Assembly: GCA_900188465.1 (NCBI GenBank)
Contig: FZPE01000004.1
Coordinates: 186,001 to 250,000 of the forward strand
DNA length: 64,000 nucleotides
Reading direction: 5' to 3'
From: Micrococcales bacterium KH10
GTDB lineage: Bacteria; Actinomycetota; Actinomycetes; Actinomycetales; Cellulomonadaceae
Made by a program: the position numbers and the translations under genes. Positions 972 through 56,486 of the stretch are shown here, in pieces; position 1 is the first letter of the stretch; each line of letters opens with the position of its first letter. The notes under the pieces were generated by a model. That model saw only the letters and a program-made list of their open reading frames with translations, had not been told where the DNA came from and ran no database searches.

Positions 972-3707
972 ATGACTGTGTCCAAGCGATCAACGCTGCG
1001 ATCGGTGCTAGTCGCCGCCACGCTCAGCGCGTTGCTCGGCAGCACGCTTGCGCCGACAACGGCCCTTGCAGCGACTGCAGATGTCACATTAATCAGTGCT
1101 GGCACGACTGACTGGCAGTATCTGGACGACAACACCGATCCAGCTCAGAGCCTGCCCAATCGCACCGATTGGACCGCCCCGTCCTTCAGCGACACCGGCT
1201 GGAAGACCGGCAAGTCACCGTTCGGAGCCAAGGGTGGCCAAGCCACGTCAAGCAACCCCAACGATGTCGGTGGCGCGAACTTCCCAGTTGCGACACTGCT
1301 GAACCAGTTCATCAACGGCACGGGATACCCAGACGTGCCAGCCTTCTTCTTCCGCACCAGCGTCTCGTTGACCCAACAGCAGCTCGATGACGCATTGCGG
1401 TTCAGAGCAGCGGTGCAATACGACGACGCGTTGACGGTGTATGTCAACGGCACGAAGGTCGCAGGTTTCCACGACCAGGACATCACCGCCAACATGCAAT
1501 ACGGCGGTTCCAATGACTCGAGCCCCAAGCCGGTTTCATTCGATGTCCCGAAGTCCGCGCTGACAGCAGGCTCCAACACGATCGCGGTGGAATTGCACCA
1601 AGGTCGAGAGAACAGCTCGGACATCTACTTCGATTTCACCGAACTTGTCGCCAGTTTCACCCCTGAGATTCCTGAGATCAGTGACCTGGTGCTGAACATC
1701 GGTTCCGACGAGTCGCAGCGCAACTTGGTCTGGTACACCAGTGCTGCCGCCACCCAGTCGGTCCAGGTGGCCAAGGCGTCCGATCAGGTCGGAGATGCGT
1801 TCCCTGGGGCGCAGGCGCGCTCGTTCTCGGCGCAAAGCGGACCGACGACTGACAGCCAGTTCTTCCACCACGCCACCATCACCAACCTGGAACCCGACAC
1901 TGCGTACCTGTACCGGGTGGGCGACGAGACCAACGGCTGGTCCGACGTGTACTCGTTCCGCACCCAGGGATTCGGTGATGACTACAGCTTCATCTTTGTC
2001 GGTGACCCGCAGATCGGAGCGTCCGGCAATGTCCAGAACGACCGCACCGGTTGGGTGAATACGCTGAACACCGCTCAAGCCGCATTCCCCGACAGTCACT
2101 TCATCTTCTCTGCCGGAGACCAGGTCGAGCACGCGAACAATGAAAGCCAATATGACGCGTTCCTCGCTCCGGAGCAGTTGCGCTCCGTTCCTTTGGTGCC
2201 GGTCAATGGCAACCACGATGTCGGCTCCAAGGCATACGAACAGCACTTCAACCAGCCCAACTGGGATCCGTCATATGGGGCAGCTAGTTCTTCCACCAGT
2301 TCGGGTGGCAATTACTGGTTCAAGTACAACGATGTCCTATATGTGGTGCTCAACTCCAACAGCCGCGACCACGCGAGTCACGCAGAGTTCATGACCAAGG
2401 TGGTCCAGGAACAGGGGGCGGATGCCAAGTGGAAGGTGCTCGCATTCCACCACTCGATCTACTCGGTCGCCGCGCACACCAATGACTCAGACATTCTGGA
2501 TCGCCGTGCGAACATGCCTGAGACTATCTCCGACCTGGGTTTCGACCTGGTTCTGATGGGCCACGACCACAGTTATACCCGCAGTTGGCTGCTCAACGAT
2601 GGCCAGCCGGTTGAGGTTGGTGGCGTGGCTCAGCCGGTCGTTGAAGCGAACCCGGGTGACGTGTTGTACGTGACCGCGAACTCCGCTTCGGGCAGCAAGT
2701 ACTACTCGGTGCGTGCGCCAGAAGCGCCGTTCGCTGCGGTGATCAACCAGGAGAACAAGCGCAACTACTCCAACGTTGCCGTCACCGACCGCTCCATCAC
2801 GGTGACGACCTACCGCAGTGACGACAACACGGTAGTCGACGAGGTCACCCTGCAGCGTGTTGACCTGGAAGAACCGACCATCTCCGCGCCGGGCGACACC
2901 ACGGTCAAATTCGGTGAACCATTCGACGCGCTTGCGGGTGTTACCGCGTACGACAACGTCGACGGCGACATCACCGACCGCATCACCGTGACCGGCTCTG
3001 TCAACACTGGTGCGTTGGGTGAGTACGAACTGACCTATTCGGTGGCTGACGACGCCGGAAACGTGGCTGAGGCCCACCGCACGATCTTCGTGGTCAAGAA
3101 TGCTCTCGTCGCTCCACTCCCGACGATTTCGGGCAAACCCCAGGTTGATCAGCGATTGACCGCACAACCAGGACAGTGGCCTGCCGGAACGAAACTGACC
3201 TACAGCTGGAGCGCGAACGGGACCGATGTACCCGGCGCTACTGCCGCCACCTTGCAGGTGACGCCGAGCTTGGTCGGCAAGGCCGTGCGAGTACGTGTCG
3301 CGGCCACACTCGAGGGTTACGAGGAGACCTCAGTGGTTTCGGCTCCTGTGACGATTGCCAGTGGTCAGCTCACCACCGTGAAGCCTCGGATCAAGGGCAA
3401 GGCGAAGGTTGGCAAAAAGTTGCGTGTCCAGCCTGGCAAGTGGGCGCTCGTTCCGTCGCTGACTTACCGCTGGTACGCCAGTGGCAAGGCCATCAAGGGC
3501 GCGAAAGGCGCGAAGGCGACGCTGAAGCTGACCAAGAAGCTGGCAGGCAAGCGCATCACGGTGCGTGTCACTGCCAGCAAGCCGGGCTATGTGAGTGTCA
3601 CGGCGAAGTCGGCGAAGACCAAGAAGGTGGCCAAGAAGAAGGCAGCCAAGAAGTCCTCCAAGAAGTCGGCTACGCGGAATACCGTGGTGAAGCGGGTGCC
3701 TAGGTAG
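972..3707 (+). CDS. Secreted metallophosphoesterase (purple acid phosphatase-like) with Ig-like domains and a basic tail
   Basis: The 911-residue product probably hydrolyses phosphate esters outside the cell. The ATG at 972 has GAAAGG 5 nt upstream and starts a Sec signal peptide (about 1-32, ending near TALAA). A jelly-roll-like N-terminal region and a fibronectin-III-like segment (about 230-340) precede the calcineurin-like catalytic core. The core carries the full metal set: VGDPQIG, SAGDQVE, NGNHDVG, FHHS and MGHDHSYTR (about 345-535). Then come a DUF5011/HYR-type Ig domain (about 635-710), two actinobacterial Ig-like repeats opening with PTISGKPQV and KPRIKGKAKV, and a ~35-residue Lys/Ala/Ser tail ending KRVPR. 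No LPXTG motif is seen. The lipoprotein gene follows without a gap. Confidence 0.88.
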   Translation: MTVSKRSTLRSVLVAATLSALLGSTLAPTTALAATADVTLISAGTTDWQYLDDNTDPAQSLPNRTDWTAPSFSDTGWKTGKSPFGAKGGQATSSNPNDVGGANFPVATLLNQFINGTGYPDVPAFFFRTSVSLTQQQLDDALRFRAAVQYDDALTVYVNGTKVAGFHDQDITANMQYGGSNDSSPKPVSFDVPKSALTAGSNTIAVELHQGRENSSDIYFDFTELVASFTPEIPEISDLVLNIGSDESQRNLVWYTSAAATQSVQVAKASDQVGDAFPGAQARSFSAQSGPTTDSQFFHHATITNLEPDTAYLYRVGDETNGWSDVYSFRTQGFGDDYSFIFVGDPQIGASGNVQNDRTGWVNTLNTAQAAFPDSHFIFSAGDQVEHANNESQYDAFLAPEQLRSVPLVPVNGNHDVGSKAYEQHFNQPNWDPSYGAASSSTSSGGNYWFKYNDVLYVVLNSNSRDHASHAEFMTKVVQEQGADAKWKVLAFHHSIYSVAAHTNDSDILDRRANMPETISDLGFDLVLMGHDHSYTRSWLLNDGQPVEVGGVAQPVVEANPGDVLYVTANSASGSKYYSVRAPEAPFAAVINQENKRNYSNVAVTDRSITVTTYRSDDNTVVDEVTLQRVDLEEPTISAPGDTTVKFGEPFDALAGVTAYDNVDGDITDRITVTGSVNTGALGEYELTYSVADDAGNVAEAHRTIFVVKNALVAPLPTISGKPQVDQRLTAQPGQWPAGTKLTYSWSANGTDVPGATAATLQVTPSLVGKAVRVRVAATLEGYEETSVVSAPVTIASGQLTTVKPRIKGKAKVGKKLRVQPGKWALVPSLTYRWYASGKAIKGAKGAKATLKLTKKLAGKRITVRVTASKPGYVSVTAKSAKTKKVAKKKAAKKSSKKSATRNTVVKRVPR

Positions 3708-27154: not shown

Positions 27155-27625
27155 GTGGCAACCATGTGGCGGTTCATTCACCCTCACCAGCTCATGCGGC
27201 TCGTCGCGGCGAGTTTCGTCGCGGCCGTCATCGGCACGATTGTCTTGCTCGTTCTTCCGTACACGGAGTTTCACGCACAGGCGGTGTATGAAAGTTTCGT
27301 TCTAACGGCGCAAGTCGCATTGCCCGCCATCTGGATGCTCGCCTGGCCGGTCGACGTTCTGACTCATAGGCGTGCATGGTCAACCCAAATGTGGCTGATG
27401 ACAGGTATCGGCGCGCTCGCAGGAGCCGTCTGGATGCTCCCGATCTTGTTCGCGGAAGGCTGGAGTGAAGGTGGCTTCTCTATCCTCAGTCTTTTCATGC
27501 TGGTGTACTCAGTGCCGCCTGCCGCAGTCACCGCGTTACTTACGTTCCTGGTCGTAGACCGCTGGGTCGATAACCGGAAACTGATCTATGTGACCGGTCC
27601 GCTGTGCCTAGCCATTGTTCTATGA
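27155..27625 (+). CDS. Four-helix membrane protein of unknown function
   Basis: The 156-residue product has four hydrophobic segments (about 16-37, 48-65, 83-103 and 111-131) and no recognised motif. The GTG at 27155 has AAGGAA 7-8 nt upstream. It stands alone between divergent rmuC and the convergent sigma-factor gene. A role cannot be given; sensors and small permease-like proteins of this size are common in actinobacteria. Confidence 0.7.
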   Translation: MATMWRFIHPHQLMRLVAASFVAAVIGTIVLLVLPYTEFHAQAVYESFVLTAQVALPAIWMLAWPVDVLTHRRAWSTQMWLMTGIGALAGAVWMLPILFAEGWSEGGFSILSLFMLVYSVPPAAVTALLTFLVVDRWVDNRKLIYVTGPLCLAIVL

Positions 27626-27671
27626 GCCAACTGGATCTATCCGTATGACTGGTACTGATCGCGCGCGCCGT

Positions 27672-27702
27672 TGGGGCACCGCCACTTGCAGGCGATGCCC
27701 CA
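27672..27702. terminator. Stem-loop between convergent genes
   Basis: TGGGGCA (27672-27678) pairs with TGCCCCA (27696-27702), and after one C-A mismatch CGCC pairs with GGCG around a 7-nt loop. It lies between the ends of the membrane protein gene and the sigma-factor gene and may serve both. Confidence 0.65.
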
Positions 27703-27714
27703 GGACCAGTTCGG

Positions 27715-29028
27715 TCAGCGCGATGTCAGACACCAGGTATTCGGTGCGGGTTGGAACACGATGATCACTTGGCCGTCCTCATCGACGAGCCACTTGCTAG
27801 CCAACTCGCGCAGCGGTGAACCGGCCGGTACCTCGATGCGCCATCCTTCGTCGACCTTGGTCACAGAGGGTGCCGAGGAATCCCTGCAACTGTCTACCCC
27901 CGACCCATCGGTCACTTCGTCAACGGCTGCTTGCTGATCGGCCTCCTGCGAACCGCTCGCTGTTTGTCGCTCAATGTGCAAGGTGTCGTCGCGTTCCTCA
28001 TCAGCCACCGTGCCGGCAGGCCCAACGGGTAGGTCGGATGGGTCCCCGACCTGGACCGAGACATTCCCATCGGCATCGGACACCGTGATCACTGATCCGT
28101 CAGCCAGACTCTGAGCGTTGAAGTTGACCTCGGCCTCGATGCCGCGTTCTGCGAGTGCCTCCTGCAGCTTCGCCTCATCGCTGAGCTCGCGAACCGTCAC
28201 GATGATGCTGCCGTCGGCTTGAGCATCGATGGCGAATGCTGGCGTGGGGGCCAGCGCTGAGAACGCGACGGCAACTCCAATGGCAGTGATGCCGGTGGCA
28301 GCCACACCGATCAGCCAGTTACGCGACTTGGGTTTGGCATGGCTACTGACCGTCGACTCAGCGGAATCGGCAGAACGCTCTTGCGTGTAGGTGCGCAGTT
28401 CGGTCAGCAACGATTCTTCGAACTTGTTCAAAGGTGGGCGGGAATTCATGATGCTGCCTCCTGATAGGCCGTGATGGGGGGAGAGAATGCTCTGGAGTGT
28501 CTGTCGCGCACGGTGATAGCGAACTCGTGCGGTATTCGCCTTGATTCCAAGGATTTCGGCTGCATCAACCAGGGAAATATCGTCAATAGCAACGAGTTCC
28601 ACCAACTGCCGATCGGCTGAAGACAGCTGCGAAAGCGCTCGATACATCGCCCGTGCGGAGCGTTCTGCGTCCAAGCGTTCTTCGATGCGGGCAATAGAAT
28701 CGGGGTCGAGTAGTCGCCTGCCGCTAATGCGCGCAACGATCTGAAAGCTTCTGGCATTGGCCCTGGCACGTGCCGCCAAGACGTTGCGCCCGATGCCGTA
28801 GAGCCAGACCAACGGTGCAGCGCGCTGTGGATCATAGGTATGGGCGGAGTCGACGGCAGCGACGAAGATGTCGGCGACGGCGTCAGCCGCATCGTGAACA
28901 TCGCTCAGGCGTCTTGCGACGAAACGGTTGATTACCTCGATGTGCTCCCGATAGAAGGCCTCAAGCGCGTCGCCATCGTGTTGGATAGCGGCTACCGGAT
29001 TCCCCGGGCCGCTTGGTGGGGTGCTCAT
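27715..29028 (-). CDS. ECF sigma factor fused to a membrane-anchored C-terminal domain
   Basis: The single 437-codon frame joins two proteins that are usually separate. Residues 1-193 are an ECF sigma factor: region 2 (about 22-95, ALEAFYREHIEVINRFVARRL, then APLVWLYGIGRNVLAARAR) and region 4 (about 130-185, LSSADRQLVELVAI and IKANTARVRYHRAR). From Met194 the chain continues with a cytoplasmic stretch, one membrane helix (about 245-265) and an external acidic domain. No zinc-binding HxxxCxxC motif of ZAS anti-sigma factors is seen. An internal AGGAGG lies 7 nt before the ATG of Met194, so the second part may also be made alone. Fused ECF types with membrane extensions are known in actinobacteria. 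The trigger is unknown. Confidence 0.85.
   Translation of the reverse strand: MSTPPSGPGNPVAAIQHDGDALEAFYREHIEVINRFVARRLSDVHDAADAVADIFVAAVDSAHTYDPQRAAPLVWLYGIGRNVLAARARANARSFQIVARISGRRLLDPDSIARIEERLDAERSARAMYRALSQLSSADRQLVELVAIDDISLVDAAEILGIKANTARVRYHRARQTLQSILSPHHGLSGGSIMNSRPPLNKFEESLLTELRTYTQERSADSAESTVSSHAKPKSRNWLIGVAATGITAIGVAVAFSALAPTPAFAIDAQADGSIIVTVRELSDEAKLQEALAERGIEAEVNFNAQSLADGSVITVSDADGNVSVQVGDPSDLPVGPAGTVADEERDDTLHIERQTASGSQEADQQAAVDEVTDGSGVDSCRDSSAPSVTKVDEGWRIEVPAGSPLRELASKWLVDEDGQVIIVFQPAPNTWCLTSR
28447..28462 (-). promoter_or_regulatory. Internal ribosome-binding site and start inside the sigma fusion gene
   Basis: On the minus strand AGGAGG (28462-28457), seven bases and ATG (28449-28447) lie in frame at codon 194, exactly at the border of sigma region 4 and the membrane module. 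Strength and spacing are those of a real start site, so a separate 244-residue membrane protein could be produced. Confidence 0.65.
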
Positions 29029-29643: not shown

Positions 29644-30729
29644 GTGGCCCTTACTATCGGAATCGTCGGTCTGCCCAATGTCGGCAAGTCAACCCTGTTC
29701 AACGCGCTGACCCGCAACCAGGTCCTCGCGGCAAACTACCCGTTCGCGACCATCGAACCGAACGTCGGCGTGGTGCCGCTGCCGGACGAGCGGCTCGGTA
29801 AACTCGCGGAAGTGTTCGGGTCGGAGAAGATCGTGCCGGCGACGGTGTCGTTCGTGGACATCGCGGGCATCGTGAAGGGCGCTTCCGAGGGTGAAGGTCT
29901 GGGCAACAAATTCTTGGCCAATATCCGCGAGGCCGACGCGATCTGCCAGGTGACCCGCGCGTTCGTCGACGCTGACGTGGTGCATGTCGATGGCAAGGTG
30001 GACCCGGCTTCGGATATCGAGACGATCAACACCGAGTTGGTGCTCGCTGACCTGCAAACCCTTGAAAAGGCGATCCCTCGCGTCGAGAAGGAAGTCAAGA
30101 TCAAGAAGGGCGACCCGAAGTATCTTGAGGCGCTGCAAACCGCGCAGAAGGTGCTCGAATCCGGATCGACTCTGTTTGCCGGTGCGGCAGCTGCCGGACT
30201 TGACCTGGCTGACATCGCGCAGTTGCAGTTGATGACCGCCAAGCCGTTCATTTATGTGTTCAACACCGACGACGCTGGGCTGGCGGACACCACGCGCCAG
30301 GACGAGTTGCGCGCTATGGTCGCTCCCGCTGACGCGATCTTCCTCGATGCGCAGTTCGAGTCCGAGTTGGCTGAACTGGAACCGGACGAGGCCGCCGAGA
30401 TGTTGGCCGATGCCGGGCAGGACGAGTCCGGTCTGGACCAACTGGCCCGTGTCGGATTCCACACTCTTGGATTGCAGACGTATCTGACTGCCGGGCCGAA
30501 GGAGGCTCGTGCCTGGACGATCCGTCAAGGATGGACTGCCCCGCAGGCTGCCGGCGTGATCCACACCGACTTCGAAAAGGGCTTCATCAAGGCCGAAGTT
30601 ATTTCCTTCGACGACTTGGTTGAGACCGGGTCGGTCGCGGCCGCGCGTGCAGCGGGCAAGGCCCGGATCGAAGGCAAGGACTACGTCATGGTCGACGGGG
30701 ACGTGGTGGAATTTCGTTTCGCCGTATAA
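29644..30729 (+). CDS. ychF: Redox-regulated ATPase YchF
   Basis: The 361-residue P-loop protein binds ATP and associates with ribosomes. Visible are G1 GLPNVGKSTLFNAL, G3 DIAGIVKGASEGEGLGNKFL, the coiled coil (about 130-200) and the C-terminal TGS-like domain with TAGPKEARAWTI, GVIHTDFEKGFIKAEVI and the ending VVEFRFAV. A GTG start 7 nt behind TAGACT (29631-29636) suggests a leaderless message. The last codons matter for the region downstream: two further copies of the VEFRF-V-stop end occur at 33466 and 34779. Confidence 0.97.
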   Translation: MALTIGIVGLPNVGKSTLFNALTRNQVLAANYPFATIEPNVGVVPLPDERLGKLAEVFGSEKIVPATVSFVDIAGIVKGASEGEGLGNKFLANIREADAICQVTRAFVDADVVHVDGKVDPASDIETINTELVLADLQTLEKAIPRVEKEVKIKKGDPKYLEALQTAQKVLESGSTLFAGAAAAGLDLADIAQLQLMTAKPFIYVFNTDDAGLADTTRQDELRAMVAPADAIFLDAQFESELAELEPDEAAEMLADAGQDESGLDQLARVGFHTLGLQTYLTAGPKEARAWTIRQGWTAPQAAGVIHTDFEKGFIKAEVISFDDLVETGSVAAARAAGKARIEGKDYVMVDGDVVEFRFAV

Positions 30730-30779
30730 CCTCTCGCGTCGATTGAGCGGTCTGACCTGCCGATGCGATGACCAAAATA

Positions 30780-30816
30780 GGTCAGCAGTCACTGTATAGT
30801 TCAGTGCATGCTGACC
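30780..30816 (+). promoter_or_regulatory. Interrupted palindrome over the cmtR promoter and start
   Basis: GGTCAGCA, CACTG, TATAGTT, CAGTG and TGCTGACC follow one another at 30780-30787, 30790-30794, 30795-30801, 30802-30806 and 30809-30816, so two nested inverted repeats share one centre. The centre contains the -10 box TATAGT (30795-30800), 7 nt before the ATG at 30808. This is the expected place for the operator of the metal sensor encoded next. Confidence 0.75.
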
Positions 30817-31167
30817 ATTGCTTCACGCCTCGACGTCATGTACCGGCTCGGCCGAGCCATGGCGGACCCGACGCGATCCCGGATCCTGATGACCCTGCTC
30901 GACGGGCCGAGCTACCCGGCCGTGCTCTCGCGCGAGCTGGAGCTGACGCGTTCGAACGTGTCGAACCACCTGACCTGTCTTCGCGACTGCGGGATCGTGG
31001 CCGCCGAGCCCGAGGGGCGGCAGACGCGCTACGAGATCGCCGACCCGCACCTCGCGGCAGCGCTCACGGCGCTGGTGGACGTGACGCTGGCCGTGGACGA
31101 GCACGCGCCGTGCGTTGATGACCAGTGCCCGGTGCCGGGCTGCTGCGGGACGGGGGCAGGCGCATGA
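30808..31167 (+). CDS. cmtR: CmtR-like Cd/Pb-sensing ArsR-family repressor
   Basis: The 119-residue winged-helix protein closely resembles mycobacterial CmtR: RLGRAMADPTRSRILMTLLDG, LTRSNVSNHLTCLRDCGIV and EGRQTRYEIAD. The metal-site cysteines are present as CLRDC (about 57 and 61) and a C-terminal CVDDQC region that can supply the third thiol. Metal binding should release the promoter. ATG overlaps the palindromic operator and the message is probably leaderless. The stop overlaps the ATPase start as ATGA. This and the next two genes look clearly richer in G+C than the neighbouring genes. Confidence 0.92.
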   Translation: MLTIASRLDVMYRLGRAMADPTRSRILMTLLDGPSYPAVLSRELELTRSNVSNHLTCLRDCGIVAAEPEGRQTRYEIADPHLAAALTALVDVTLAVDEHAPCVDDQCPVPGCCGTGAGA

Positions 31168-33077
31168 GCGCGGCGTGCGGCTGCGACGAGCCCGAGACCC
31201 GGGTCGGCGAGGAGGCCGAGGAGGAGCGGGAGCGTCCGTGGTGGCGTGACCGCGGGATCATGGTCCCGGCGCTCTCCGGCGTCGCCTTCGGCACGGGCCT
31301 GGCCGTGGAATGGACAGGGGCGGAGGTCCCGGCGCTGGTGGCGTTCTGGATCGGCCTGCTGCTGGGCGCGTCGACGTTCACCCCGGGCGCGATCCGCAAG
31401 CTGTTCAAGGGCAAGCTGGGCATCGGCCTGCTAATGACGATCAGCGCGGTCGGCGCGGTCATCCTCGGCTACGTCGAGGAGGCCGCGGCGCTGGCGTTCC
31501 TGTACTCGATCGCCGAAGCGCTGGAGGACAAGGCCATGGACCGCGCCCGCGGCGGGCTGCGGGCGCTGCTCAAGCTGGTCCCGGAGACCGCGACCATCCG
31601 GCAGGATGGCGCGCCCGTGGAGGTCGCCGCGAAGGATCTGGCCGTTGGCCAGCTGATGCTCGTGCGTCCGGGTGAGCGGATCGCGACCGACGGCATCGTC
31701 CGCACGGGCCGATCGAGCCTGGACACCTCCGCGATCACCGGCGAGTCGATCCCGGTCGAGGTCGAGCCCGGCGACGCGGTGTCGGCCGGGGCGATCAACA
31801 CCGCCGGTGCCCTGGAGATCGAGACGACCGCGGCGGGCACGGACAACTCGCTGACCACGATCGTGGAGCTGGTCGAGCAGGCGCAGGCCGAGAAGGGCGA
31901 CCGCGCCCGCCTGGCCGACCGCATCGCCCGCCCGCTCGTGCCCGGTGTGCTGATCCTCGCCGCTCTCGTCGCGATCATTGGCTCGCTGCTCGGCGACCCG
32001 GAGCTGTGGATCACCCGCGCCCTCGTGGTGCTCGTCGCCGCGTCGCCGTGCGCGCTGGCGATCTCCGTCCCGCTCACCGTCGTCGCCGCGATCGGCTCGG
32101 CGAGCCGGTTCGGCGTGATCATCAAGTCCGGTGCCGTGTTCGAGCGCTTCGGCGTGATCCGCCACGTCGCCGTCGACAAGACCGGCACCCTCACCCGCAA
32201 CGAGCCCGCCGTCACCGCCGTCCTCACCGCCGACGGCGTGACCGAGGCGCAGGCCCTGGCCTGGGCGGCATCCCTGGAGCAGCACAGCACCCACCCGCTG
32301 GCCGCCGCGATCACCGCCGCCGCACCCGGAGCCCCCGCCGCCCTGGACGTCACCGAGCAGGCCGGGCACGGCATCGAAGGCACCCTCGACGGGGCCCGGG
32401 TCACCGTCGGCAGCCCTCGCTGGCTGGACTCGGGGACGCTCAAGGACCAGGTCGCGGGCCTGGAGGAGCAGGGCATGACCGTCGTCATTGTGCACCTCGA
32501 CGGGGTCCCGGTCGCCGCGATCGGGGTCCGCGACGAGCTGCGCCCCGAGGTCCCAGAGGTCGTGCGCACCCTCGCGGCCCAGGGCGTCGGGATGACCATG
32601 CTCACCGGCGACAACGCCCGCACCGCCCGCGCGCTGGCCGCGCAGGCCGGGATCGGGGACGTGCGCGCCGAGCTGCGTCCCGAGGACAAGGCCGCCGCGA
32701 TCAGCGAGCTGGGCAGGCACGGCTCGGTCGCGATGATCGGCGACGGCATCAACGACGCCCCCGCCCTGGCGGCCGCGGACATCGGCATCGCGATGGGCGC
32801 GACCGGCTCCGATGCCGCGATCGAGTCCGCCGACGTCGCCTTCACCGGCCACGACCTGCGGCTCCTCCCGCGGGCGTTCGACCACGCCCGCCGCGGCAGG
32901 CACATCATCAACCAGAACATCATCCTGTCCCTGCTGATCATCACCGCCCTGCTCCCGCTCGCCCTCTTCGGCGTCCTGGGACTCGCTGCCGTGGTGCTCG
33001 TGCACGAGATCGCGGAGGTCATCGTGATCCTCAATGGCTTGCGCGCGGCCCGGACCCGGAAGGAGCAGATCGTATGA
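31164..33077 (+). CDS. P1B-type heavy-metal ATPase (Cd/Zn/Pb/Co efflux)
   Basis: The 637-residue membrane pump has TGES (actuator), the transmembrane metal motif SPC (in AASPCALAI), DKTGT (phosphorylation), HP (STHPLA) and GDGINDAP (hinge). The last helices hold HEIAEVIVILNGLR. SPC instead of CPC points away from classic copper pumps and toward P1B-4 or CtpG-like transporters; with a CmtR-type sensor upstream, cadmium or lead is the likely cargo. The short N-terminus has Cys-Gly-Cys but no full HMA domain. It is coupled by ATGA overlaps on both sides. Confidence 0.93.
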   Translation: MSAACGCDEPETRVGEEAEEERERPWWRDRGIMVPALSGVAFGTGLAVEWTGAEVPALVAFWIGLLLGASTFTPGAIRKLFKGKLGIGLLMTISAVGAVILGYVEEAAALAFLYSIAEALEDKAMDRARGGLRALLKLVPETATIRQDGAPVEVAAKDLAVGQLMLVRPGERIATDGIVRTGRSSLDTSAITGESIPVEVEPGDAVSAGAINTAGALEIETTAAGTDNSLTTIVELVEQAQAEKGDRARLADRIARPLVPGVLILAALVAIIGSLLGDPELWITRALVVLVAASPCALAISVPLTVVAAIGSASRFGVIIKSGAVFERFGVIRHVAVDKTGTLTRNEPAVTAVLTADGVTEAQALAWAASLEQHSTHPLAAAITAAAPGAPAALDVTEQAGHGIEGTLDGARVTVGSPRWLDSGTLKDQVAGLEEQGMTVVIVHLDGVPVAAIGVRDELRPEVPEVVRTLAAQGVGMTMLTGDNARTARALAAQAGIGDVRAELRPEDKAAAISELGRHGSVAMIGDGINDAPALAAADIGIAMGATGSDAAIESADVAFTGHDLRLLPRAFDHARRGRHIINQNIILSLLIITALLPLALFGVLGLAAVVLVHEIAEVIVILNGLRAARTRKEQIV

Positions 33078-33382
33078 AGGTCGAACTGCTGCACATCGTC
33101 GACTGCCCGAACACGGCCATCGCCGAAGCAAACGCGCGCGCCGCGCTGGATGCCGCCGAGCTCGCGGAAGTGCCCATCGAGCTGGTAACGATCCACACCG
33201 AGACCGAAGCGGTGAACACCCGATTCGGAGGCTCGCCCACGATCCTCGTCGACGGCGTCGACCTGTTTCCGACGCAACCGGTTCGCTCGCTCGCGTGCCG
33301 GGTCTACGCGACTGAGCGCGGGTACGCCGGTGCACCGACTCCGTCTCAGATCGAGGAGGCGTTGCACGAGACCTATCGTTGA
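33074..33382 (+). CDS. Small thioredoxin-fold protein of the cadmium operon
   Basis: The 102-residue product begins VELLHIVDCPNTAIAEANA and later has FGGSPTILVDGVDLFP, a thioredoxin-like pattern with a cis-Pro loop but only one Cys in the active-site region (CPNT). Similar small proteins accompany mercury and arsenic genes. It may hand metal or thiol groups to the pump or reduce the sensor. Start and the ATPase stop overlap as ATGA. A further Cys (SLACRVY) could complete a disulfide. Confidence 0.75.
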   Translation: MKVELLHIVDCPNTAIAEANARAALDAAELAEVPIELVTIHTETEAVNTRFGGSPTILVDGVDLFPTQPVRSLACRVYATERGYAGAPTPSQIEEALHETYR

Positions 33383-33450
33383 CGTCGAACGCAAGCTGTC
33401 GGTCCCGGACGCGGGGCCGAGCGCTTCACTGCACACCTCAAGAGGGTGGT

Positions 33451-33489
33451 ATGTACCGGAAATCGGTGGAGTTCCGCTTCAATGTGTGA
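33451..33489 (+). repeat. First displaced copy of the ychF 3' end
   Basis: The frame YRKSVEFRFNV-stop (33454-33489) repeats the end of YchF proteins (VEFRF-V-stop). It stands alone, without the rest of the gene, directly behind the cadmium operon. It aligns with 34764-34802, including about 12 bp upstream of the ychF-like part. It marks the end of one inserted block. Confidence 0.7.
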
Positions 33490-33525
33490 GGCGATTGGCT
33501 GCCTATCGCGTTGACCAGCGGGGGG

Positions 33526-53573: not shown

Positions 53574-54338
53574 TTACTGAGATAGCCGCTCGATCAGGTC
53601 CAGAACCACGGAAGCGGACCGGTCGGCGGCATCGTCCACATGGGTGTCGAATTCGCTAGGACCGCAAAGATCCGATACCGCGCGAATTGACACGAACGGG
53701 ACCCCCAGGCTGTAGCTCGTCTGTGCCAGAGCGCCGGTTTCCATGTCGACGCTGAGCGCATCGGGCCACTGCTCACGGGTCGGTGCCACGCGCGGCGTGC
53801 TGACAAAGACATCGGATGAGAGCATCAACCCGCGGCGCACCGGTGAGTCATCGCGCGTTTGACGTACGAGCGCCAGGACGGCCTCGTCCGCGTGGTATTC
53901 GGCCGGCATACCGGGCACCTGCCCCAGTTCATATCCGAAAGCGGTGGCATCAGCGGCGGAGTGCACGAACCGGTTTCCGGCAACAATCTCTCCAACGCGA
54001 ATATCGCGATGGATTCCACCCGCTGAACCCGCACTGATAACTACAGGTGCATACTGCGCAGCAGCTTCATGGACGAGGCCAGCAGCATGAGCAAACCGTG
54101 AATTTCGAAGGGCGGCGATCACCGCGGTCAGACCGCTTGCGGCATTGACGTACCCGATACCGGTTCGGACGAGCACAATCTGGCGTCCGGACACGTCGAT
54201 GCGCTGTGCCTGTGCATTGCCGAGTCGCGCGGGCTGACCGATGACGGCTCCTTGCGCCAGAAATGGTGCGGATTCCTCGGGCATGGCCACACACACCACC
54301 GCGACAACCGGAGGCGGCGCGGCGACCTGGTCGCTCAT
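53574..54338 (-). CDS. mtn: Methylthioadenosine/S-adenosylhomocysteine nucleosidase
   Basis: The 254-residue enzyme cleaves SAH and MTA to release adenine, giving S-ribosylhomocysteine for LuxS. Family features are [10 protein letters not shown] (catalytic Glu), [39 protein letters not shown] with substrate-binding Glu and catalytic Asp. ATG 54338 overlaps the luxS stop as ATGA, so the two consecutive enzymes are translated together. An insert around 85-100 is slightly longer than in E. coli. Confidence 0.92.
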
Positions 54339-54826
54339 GCGGTCACCGTGAGCCACTGGTCTCGGGCAGCAAGGAAGGTCCGAGCTGCCTCCTGCGCTCC
54401 CGGCAACGAGTGATTCGCACCCCAGCCGCACTGCACCTCATTGGCAGCGGGCACCTCGTCGGCATGAAGAATGTCCTTCATTGTCGCCTCGACCAGTGCG
54501 GCGACAGCCTCGATGTCCCAATCGCCGCTGAGCAACAGGTAGAAACCGGTCTGGCATCCCATAGGGGAGAAGTCCACGACGTTTGTGCTGTGATTGCGCG
54601 ATTTCTCCGCGAAGAGATGTTCCAGGGAGTGGATGGCGGGCATCTCAAGGTGCGCGCGATTGGGCTGCGTGAAACGAATGTCGAACTTGCTCAATGTGTC
54701 GCCTTGGGGCAACGTCTTGTGATCGGCGAGCCGAATATAGGGCGCGACCACTGTGCGGTGATCAAGGTTGAACGATTCGACGTTCATCCGTTGTGCAGAT
54801 GCGGCGGAAGGAGATTTGTCAGTCAC
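54335..54826 (-). CDS. luxS: S-ribosylhomocysteine lyase
   Basis: The 163-residue metalloenzyme makes homocysteine and the autoinducer-2 precursor DPD. Zinc ligands are in HSLEHLFAE (HxxEH) and in the Cys of EVQCGWG, and the catalytic Cys is in [14 protein letters not shown] 54826 is my choice; ATG 54787 is an alternative that starts right at VESFNLDH. The mtn gene follows in overlap. An open frame extends upstream of 54826 but has no family support. Confidence 0.94.
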
Positions 54827-54950
54827 CCTAGTAGTCTCACACATCCAGGTATCTGCAGGCAGCAGCACCGAGCCGGACATATCGGCGCATTTGAGGCAGG
54901 ACGATATACGGGCTTCGCTCAGCGCCTGTGGGGATGCGATACTTACCCCC
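54827..54950. promoter_or_regulatory. Divergent promoter region of luxS and the purine permease
   Basis: GATACT (54938-54943) lies 7 nt before the permease ATG, with no ribosome-binding site, so that message is probably leaderless. The luxS side has no clear -10 box. I looked for an S-adenosylhomocysteine riboswitch in front of luxS and did not find its conserved core. Confidence 0.5.
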
Positions 54951-56486
54951 ATGGCTTCGAAGTCCTCAAATAAGCCCGCAGCCGGGCGCACGAAGAACTC
55001 GTCCTCAAAGAGCGCGGCGAACTCATCGCCAGCGACACCGAAGAATTTTATCGACCGATTCTTCAAGATCACTGAACGTGGCTCCACTATCGGCACTGAG
55101 ATCCGTGGTGGTCTAGCAACCTTCTTCACGATGAGTTACATCATCGTGCTCAACCCCATCATCCTGGGCAATGTACCTGACGGTACCGGCGCATTCCTCG
55201 GAGGCGACCCTGCCAATAACAGTGCAGTGATCGCAGCCACCACGGCGCTCGTCGCCGGCTTGATGTCCATCCTGATGGGCGTCGTTGCCAACTTCCCACT
55301 TGCCCTCGCGGCCGGCCTCGGCCTGAACGCGGTGGTGGCCTTCTCTATCGCCTCGCTGCCTGGTATGACCTGGGCCGATGCGATGGGCATCGTGGTCCTT
55401 GAAGGTCTGCTCATTTTGATACTCGTGCTCACCGGCTTCAGAACGGCGGTGTTCCGCGCGATTCCACGGTCCATCAAGACGGCCATCAGTGTCGGCATCG
55501 GACTCTTCATCGCGTTGATCGGCATGGTCAACGCCGGGTTCGTGCGCGCCACATCGAATCCATCGCCTCCGCTGGAACTGGGCATCGCCGGTTCACTGAG
55601 CAGCTGGCCGATTTTCGTCTTCGTTGTGGGCCTGTTGCTCGCGCTGGTGCTGATGGTGCGCAAGGTCAAGGGCGCGATTCTGATTTCCATCGTGGTTACC
55701 ACCGTGATCGCGATCATCGTTGAGGCAGTCGGCAAGGTCGGTTCGCAATATACCGATGATGGCATCGACGCCAATGGGTGGCAGTCGAATGTACCAACCG
55801 TGCCTGACGCAGTGGTTGCTACACCTGACTTCTCGCTGCTCGGACAGTTCTCGTTGTTCGGATCTGTGGGCAAAGTCGGTATCATCGCAGTGATCCTGCT
55901 GGTCTTCTCGATCATGCTCGCGGACTTCTTCGACACGATGGGCACGATGGTTGCCGTTGGTGCCGAGGCGAAGTTGCTCGACAAAGAAGGCAACCCGCCG
56001 CGCACCAAGCAGATCCTGATCGTCGACTCGATCGCGGCTGCCGCAGGCGGCGCGGCATCGGTGTCGTCGAATACGTCGTATATCGAGTCGAGTGCGGGTG
56101 TGGGAGACGGCGCTCGTACCGGTTTCGCATCGGTGATCACCGGTGTGGCATTCCTCCTCGCGACCTTCCTGGCGCCGCTGGTCAACATCATTCCGGCTGA
56201 AGCAGCCGCTCCCGCGTTGGTCGTCGTCGGATTCTTGATGGTCACCCAGGTGCTCGACATCAATTGGAAGAGCTACGAGATCGGCATCCCTGCCTTTTTG
56301 ACGCTGGCGATCATGCCGTTCACCTACTCCATCACTGCAGGTATCGGTGCCGGAATCATTGCCTGGGTCGTCATCCAGATCTGCGTTGGCAAGATCCGTA
56401 AGATCCACCCGCTGATGTGGGTGACAGGTGCGATGTTCATCGCATACTTCTTGATCGGCCCCATCCGCGAGGCTGTCGGAATCTGA
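54951..56486 (+). CDS. NCS2-family purine permease (AzgA-like)
   Basis: The 511-residue protein has about 12-14 membrane segments and the AzgA features: [66 protein letters not shown] and [20 protein letters not shown]. It should import guanine, hypoxanthine or adenine with protons. A 40-residue Ser/Lys/Asn-rich N-terminus precedes the first helix. Opposite luxS-mtn, whose product adenine is a purine, so the pair may link salvage to the methyl cycle; this is inference. Confidence 0.93.

Follow-up and report, generated by a model that had tools for sequence, protein, structure and literature searches.

A single frame of 437 codons in the 64,000-nt window (the whole stretch of DNA analysed here) is very probably an ordinary operon of an ECF sigma factor and its partner, fused by a length change of one letter, whether this change occurred in the strain or in the assembly. 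The length change most likely lies in a run of six C within the unconserved tail of the sigma gene, and what an earlier note on this DNA described as a second start at the border is the ordinary start of the partner. As such, the pair is most likely ordinary and not a novel type of tethered switch.

Sigma factor and membrane partner

The fused frame lies on the minus strand, which the earlier note had not stated, and starts with an ATG at 29028, staying open until its stop codon at 27717-27715, whereas a plus-strand reading of 27715-29028 is ruled out, as its translation hits stops. The sigma factor part (28450..29028, minus strand; residues 1-193 of the fused chain, conserved to about residue 184) was delimited by Pfam and NCBIfam matches, alignment and pLDDT. 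It matched Sigma70_r2 at residues 25-93 (E 4.9e-10) and Sigma70_r4_2 at residues 126-178 (E 2.5e-10), both above the Pfam cut-off, and the fused protein matched TIGR02937 (sigma70-ECF) above the own cut-off of this NCBIfam model. No Pfam match to sigma-70 region 3 was found in the fused protein. With regions 2 and 4 only, this part is an ECF sigma factor, and the claim that such a factor runs in frame into a membrane domain was borne out. It shares 42-52% identity with five aligned relatives, matches known sigma factors in a PDB search and is well modelled in the AlphaFold prediction of the fused chain (pLDDT by block 86-95 over residues 11-90 and 92-95 over residues 131-180).

The C-terminal 244 amino acids (27715..28449, minus strand) form an anti-sigma-like membrane partner with an N-terminal helix, a membrane segment and an extracytoplasmic part, as indicated by alignment and by features compared over 35 loci. 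This part is 25-36% identical to its five aligned relatives, and neither Pfam nor NCBIfam gave a match to it above cut-off. Among 14 loci initially related to the window, a partner match was obtained in two, L003 (Microbacterium sp. Leaf320) and L004 (Dactylosporangium vinaceum), both of which carry sigma factor and partner on separate genes. A search with the single partner sequence matched 4 of 221 family genomes, and a genus search with the fused protein also gave few matches, so that profiles were adopted, one of six partners and one of six sigma factors, to locate the two genes. The partner profile matched 20 of 396 genomes of the order, 31 of 394 of the class and 8 of 220 of the family (the window's genome being included each time); some of these matches are weak, and the counts cover only loci whose DNA was read. 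After removal of 8 duplicates, there were 46 unique loci in which a sigma match precedes the partner by less than 700 nt. Outside of these 46 are seven partner matches lacking a sigma match and three loci (L043, L045, L083) that gave no partner match.

The partners of the 35 loci with a sigma match of E < 1e-40, the window included, share a common layout. A helix motif of the form [FYL][EDQ]xx[LIVM][LIV]xx[LV] stands near the start of all 35 (FEESLLTEL in the window), a count that is partly built in, since the loci were picked with a profile of the same partner family. The best 19-residue hydropathy mean ranges from 1.37 to 2.61 and reaches at least 1.6 in 34 of the 35, partner starts being approximate. 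In the window it is 2.02, at a predicted membrane segment covering partner residues 46-64 (28258..28314, minus strand; fused residues 239-257). Directly after this segment comes an A-F-A triplet (28231..28239, minus strand; fused residues 264-266), a possible signal-peptidase site, and A[FYWH]A followed by V, I or L was found in 31 of 35 partners; this pattern was used rather than the looser A.A because membrane segments are alanine-rich. A short cytoplasmic N-terminus, one membrane segment and a signal-peptidase-like site are thus all present, which resembles RsiV and RsiP in layout only.

The HxxxCxxC zinc motif occurs in none of the 35 partners, the window's having been scanned over its N-terminal 100-130 residues, in agreement with the earlier note, and the partner is not a Class I (ZAS) anti-sigma factor. 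Two of six partners weakly matched the CU044_5270 family (NCBIfam NF038083; best E 7.6e-4) and two of six matched an NCBIfam anti-sigma model (best E 0.0064); neither model matched the partner of the window, and no paper was found for the name CU044_5270 in the open-access literature searched. An anti-sigma role of the partner is suggested by the genomic pairing, the topology and these weak matches. Viral fusion proteins were rejected as structural kin of the partner, their PDB matches being of E 0.06 or worse and taken as chance. Taken as a whole, these proteins outline a zinc-less family of membrane partners that are fairly uniform, with an F-E-x-x-L-L-x-E-L helix, a membrane segment and AxA, beside actinobacterial ECF sigma factors.

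Gene structure in relatives and at the border

The window is the only fused case among the 46 unique loci, so that a conserved fusion of the IutY or ECF52/53 type was not observed. Within the 35 loci of strong sigma match, the other 34 have separate genes, the partner start being offset by -4 from the sigma stop in 29, by +1 in four and by 0 in one. The overlapping letters of the 29 are ATGA or GTGA, with one TTGA (L064, on a TTG start), and 29 is an upper bound, since the start codon closest to the -4 position was chosen. Considering all 45 separate loci, the offset is -4 in 37, +1 in four, 0 in one and +4 in one, no offset being assigned for L069 and L080. The ATGA overlap is carried, for example, by L023, L024, L025 and L029, whereas two of the five aligned relatives, L004 (50% sigma identity) and L003 (42%), have a stop just before the ATG, with offsets of +1 and 0, respectively. 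According to the earlier note, two separate genes with a stop at this point in relatives would speak for a recent mutation or a sequencing error, and this is what all 34 present. Its proposal that one gene yields two products is supported for a free partner, which could be made from the inner ATG, as this ATG and its Shine-Dalgarno site stand where relatives start the partner, but not for a sigma factor tethered by design, given the two genes of 34/34 relatives. One locus of the survey, L087 (genome G184 of the same family, reverse strand, about 2160-3050), which is one and the same place as L080, is a decayed pair where only the end of sigma region 4 is left and the partner is split over two frames.

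The border itself retains the signs of a two-gene arrangement. The AGGAGG (28457..28462, minus strand; gene nt 567-572) is the Shine-Dalgarno site of the partner and stands, as previously reported, before an in-frame ATG at gene nt 580 (28449), with a spacer of 7 nt; L024, L029 and L050 have a Shine-Dalgarno site identical in position and spacing. Two further features were not part of that note. The first is that the inner start reads ATGA (28446..28449, minus strand), where the partner start overlaps a relic TGA of the sigma gene (28448-28446) lying in the +1 frame. Indeed, a +1-frame ORF of 151 codons (28446-28901) terminates exactly at this TGA. Of the signs of a translationally coupled pair, the Shine-Dalgarno site and the ATGA are in the window, but the TGA is off by one frame. 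As the relic TGA lies in the +1 frame, a length difference of one letter between the end of conserved region 4 and the ATG suffices for the fusion. The ATGA alone is a weak sign, since 51 of 112 ATG-started genes in a sample of the genome begin this way, and 4-nt overlaps are ordinary in this genome (29 of 114 sampled adjacent same-strand pairs).

The second feature is a run of six C (28476..28481, minus strand; gene nt 548-553), proposed as the site of the length change from sequence and codon usage. This run is the sole homopolymer of at least five letters in the sigma part, and its end is 26 nt away from the partner ATG. Four homopolymer runs of at least six letters occur in the 64-kb window, a density that puts the chance of such a run within a given 60-nt stretch at about 0.004, reckoned after seeing the case. 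A one-letter length change at this run would turn the 4-nt stop/start overlap into an in-frame fusion. Codon usage, scored with a table built from 242 conserved non-overlapping genes of the window's genome, favours frame 0 upstream of the run, whereas downstream of it the +1 frame is better by 2.62 nats, the 8 codons up to the ATG having a score of -33.04 in frame 0 against -30.43 in +1. A score this bad or worse relative to the +1 frame is seen in 2.0% of 8402 true coding stretches, and the score sits at the 32nd percentile supposing that +1 is the true frame; the test is small, with 8 codons, and was picked after seeing the case.

Origin of the fusion

If a one-letter change produced the fusion, it may have been made in the strain or during sequencing and assembly, and a possible, smaller share of the preferred explanation goes to the latter, which would mean that the cell has a normal overlapping pair. 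Homopolymer runs are the usual place of sequencing length errors, and the pair is otherwise well formed, which both fit an error. On the contrary, none of 290 matched ORFs seemed frameshifted when 464 kb of the window's genome was compared with 1.2 Mb of the sister-species genome G001, a screen that is weak near gene ends, where the C run lies. The reverse screen flagged 2 of 290, in G001, and in a control, where single bases were deleted at 141 random sites of these 464 kb, 55 of 278 were flagged. The 290-ORF sets hold some spurious overlapping frames, and a similar match without them leaves 242 genes. Indel errors are thus not frequent in the assembly, and a single error may have occurred. 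A count of "fusion-like" ORFs in G000 and G001 (31 and 79 listed) was dropped, as it was swamped by antisense and spurious ORFs. Two separate cases of split matches were noticed between genomes: the match of window positions 54335-55129 to G001 (L115) falls into two pieces whose frames differ, so that the sister genome may have a frameshift or have diverged there, and a second two-piece case was found between L094 19038-19670 and L161.

Some features count against a slip. The 437-aa frame is open throughout, as expected of a functional fusion, and fused ECF sigma/anti-sigma proteins occur elsewhere, including precedents activated by proteolysis as far as described in the cited reports (PMC8999054, PMC5411451). 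Together with the presence of both the membrane segment and the AxA, they would fit an adaptive fusion, where the joined protein is a working membrane-tethered sigma factor freed by proteolysis, as in IutY or as would be expected of the actinobacterial groups ECF48, ECF52 and ECF53, and the inner start supplies extra free partner. We nevertheless consider this improbable, because the window stands alone among the 46 loci and because the relic ATGA and the C run make a slip the simpler origin. The structure prediction of the border, which the earlier note had proposed as a check, also weighs against a functional fusion: residues 186-200 are predicted disordered (pLDDT <50). Residues 224-262 likewise stay below pLDDT 50, and a helix of pLDDT about 60 is modelled at residues 202-224. 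With a mean pLDDT of 61.3 and a pTM of 0.28, the fused-chain AlphaFold model is poor at the border and in the partner and uninformative on docking.

Least probable, and in our view very unlikely, is that the six C act as a switch, by programmed or phase-variable slippage, be it a length change within the population or slippage in transcription or translation, so that one gene would give a tethered sigma factor or, by a +1 shift to the relic TGA as its stop, a free one, while the partner would in every case be translated from its own start. The sequence does encode both outcomes, frame 0 giving the fusion and +1 after the run giving the stop at the TGA of ATGA, but the C tract is not conserved: within the final 64 nt of the sigma gene, a homopolymer of at least six letters occurs in 1 of 34 relatives (L055) and one of at least five in 7 of 34. 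In addition, phase-variable tracts are usually longer than six C. Literature searches on frameshift and coupling, phase variation and homopolymers, and translational coupling of sigma pairs returned no such case by title or abstract.

Proposed working and genomic neighbourhood

With two separate genes, the partner would use its short N-terminal helix to keep the sigma factor at the membrane. A cut after the membrane segment, at the AxA, followed by an intramembrane cut, would then release the sigma factor. The motif suggests cleavage at this site, and both the inhibition and the proteolysis are proposed here by analogy with RsiV and RsiP. These two are cut at a signal-peptidase site (site 1), VQS in RsiP, and then by the site-2 protease, as described (PMC8844934); these membrane anti-sigma factors have in common with the window's anti-sigma-like partner a signal-peptidase-type site, putative in the latter, a likeness of layout. 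If the fusion is real, its sigma factor would be covalently tethered and would act only after proteolysis, and free partner would still be made.

Natural fusions offer a second comparison. IutY of Pseudomonas putida (ECF243) is described as a fused sigma/anti-sigma protein processed by Prc and RseP (PMC5411451, PMC8999054). Similarly to the window's protein, it has the sigma domain first and the membrane anti-sigma part second in one chain, again a likeness of layout; by these accounts, however, it responds to a siderophore and its fusion is the working form, whereas the fusion in the window is single and likely accidental. ECF48, ECF52 and ECF53, which are reported to have C-terminal membrane extensions and a zinc-finger domain, likely ZAS (PMC8999054), also combine an actinobacterial ECF sigma factor and membrane helices in one chain, but the window's protein is without the zinc finger that these groups have in that account. 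The closest counterparts are the two-gene actinobacterial pairs (L003, L004, L023-L025, L029 and others), with the same sigma subfamily and the same partner family, which differ by their separate genes, mostly overlapping by 4 nt (29/34), where the window reads through. When a coupled operon of sigma factor and anti-sigma-like protein changes by a single letter, a tethered sigma factor can thus arise in one step, and natural fusions such as IutY could plausibly have begun in this way. The case also calls for caution, as in-frame fusions of overlapping genes need comparison with relatives first.

We infer the mutation event itself. Its unfused ancestor is unseen, because the pair is missing at this locus from the sister species G001 and G002: both have rmuC and ychF there, and G001 the acetyltransferase too, but the rmuC-ychF interval contains neither the sigma/partner pair nor the small membrane gene found at 27155-27625 of the window. 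The partner profile gave no match in G001, G002 and G003. Positions 27155-29028, holding the small membrane gene and the sigma/partner frame, make up an accessory stretch of about 1.9 kb. Further along, positions 30500-33500 have a G+C content of 0.68-0.74, compared to about 0.60 upstream, and span two frames named from reading the sequence, one like an ArsR regulator (30808-31167) and the other like a metal P-type ATPase (31125-33077). Related DNA follows ychF in G001, where one frame stretch is 99% identical over 102 residues, an identity that suggests a recent transfer of 30500-33500.
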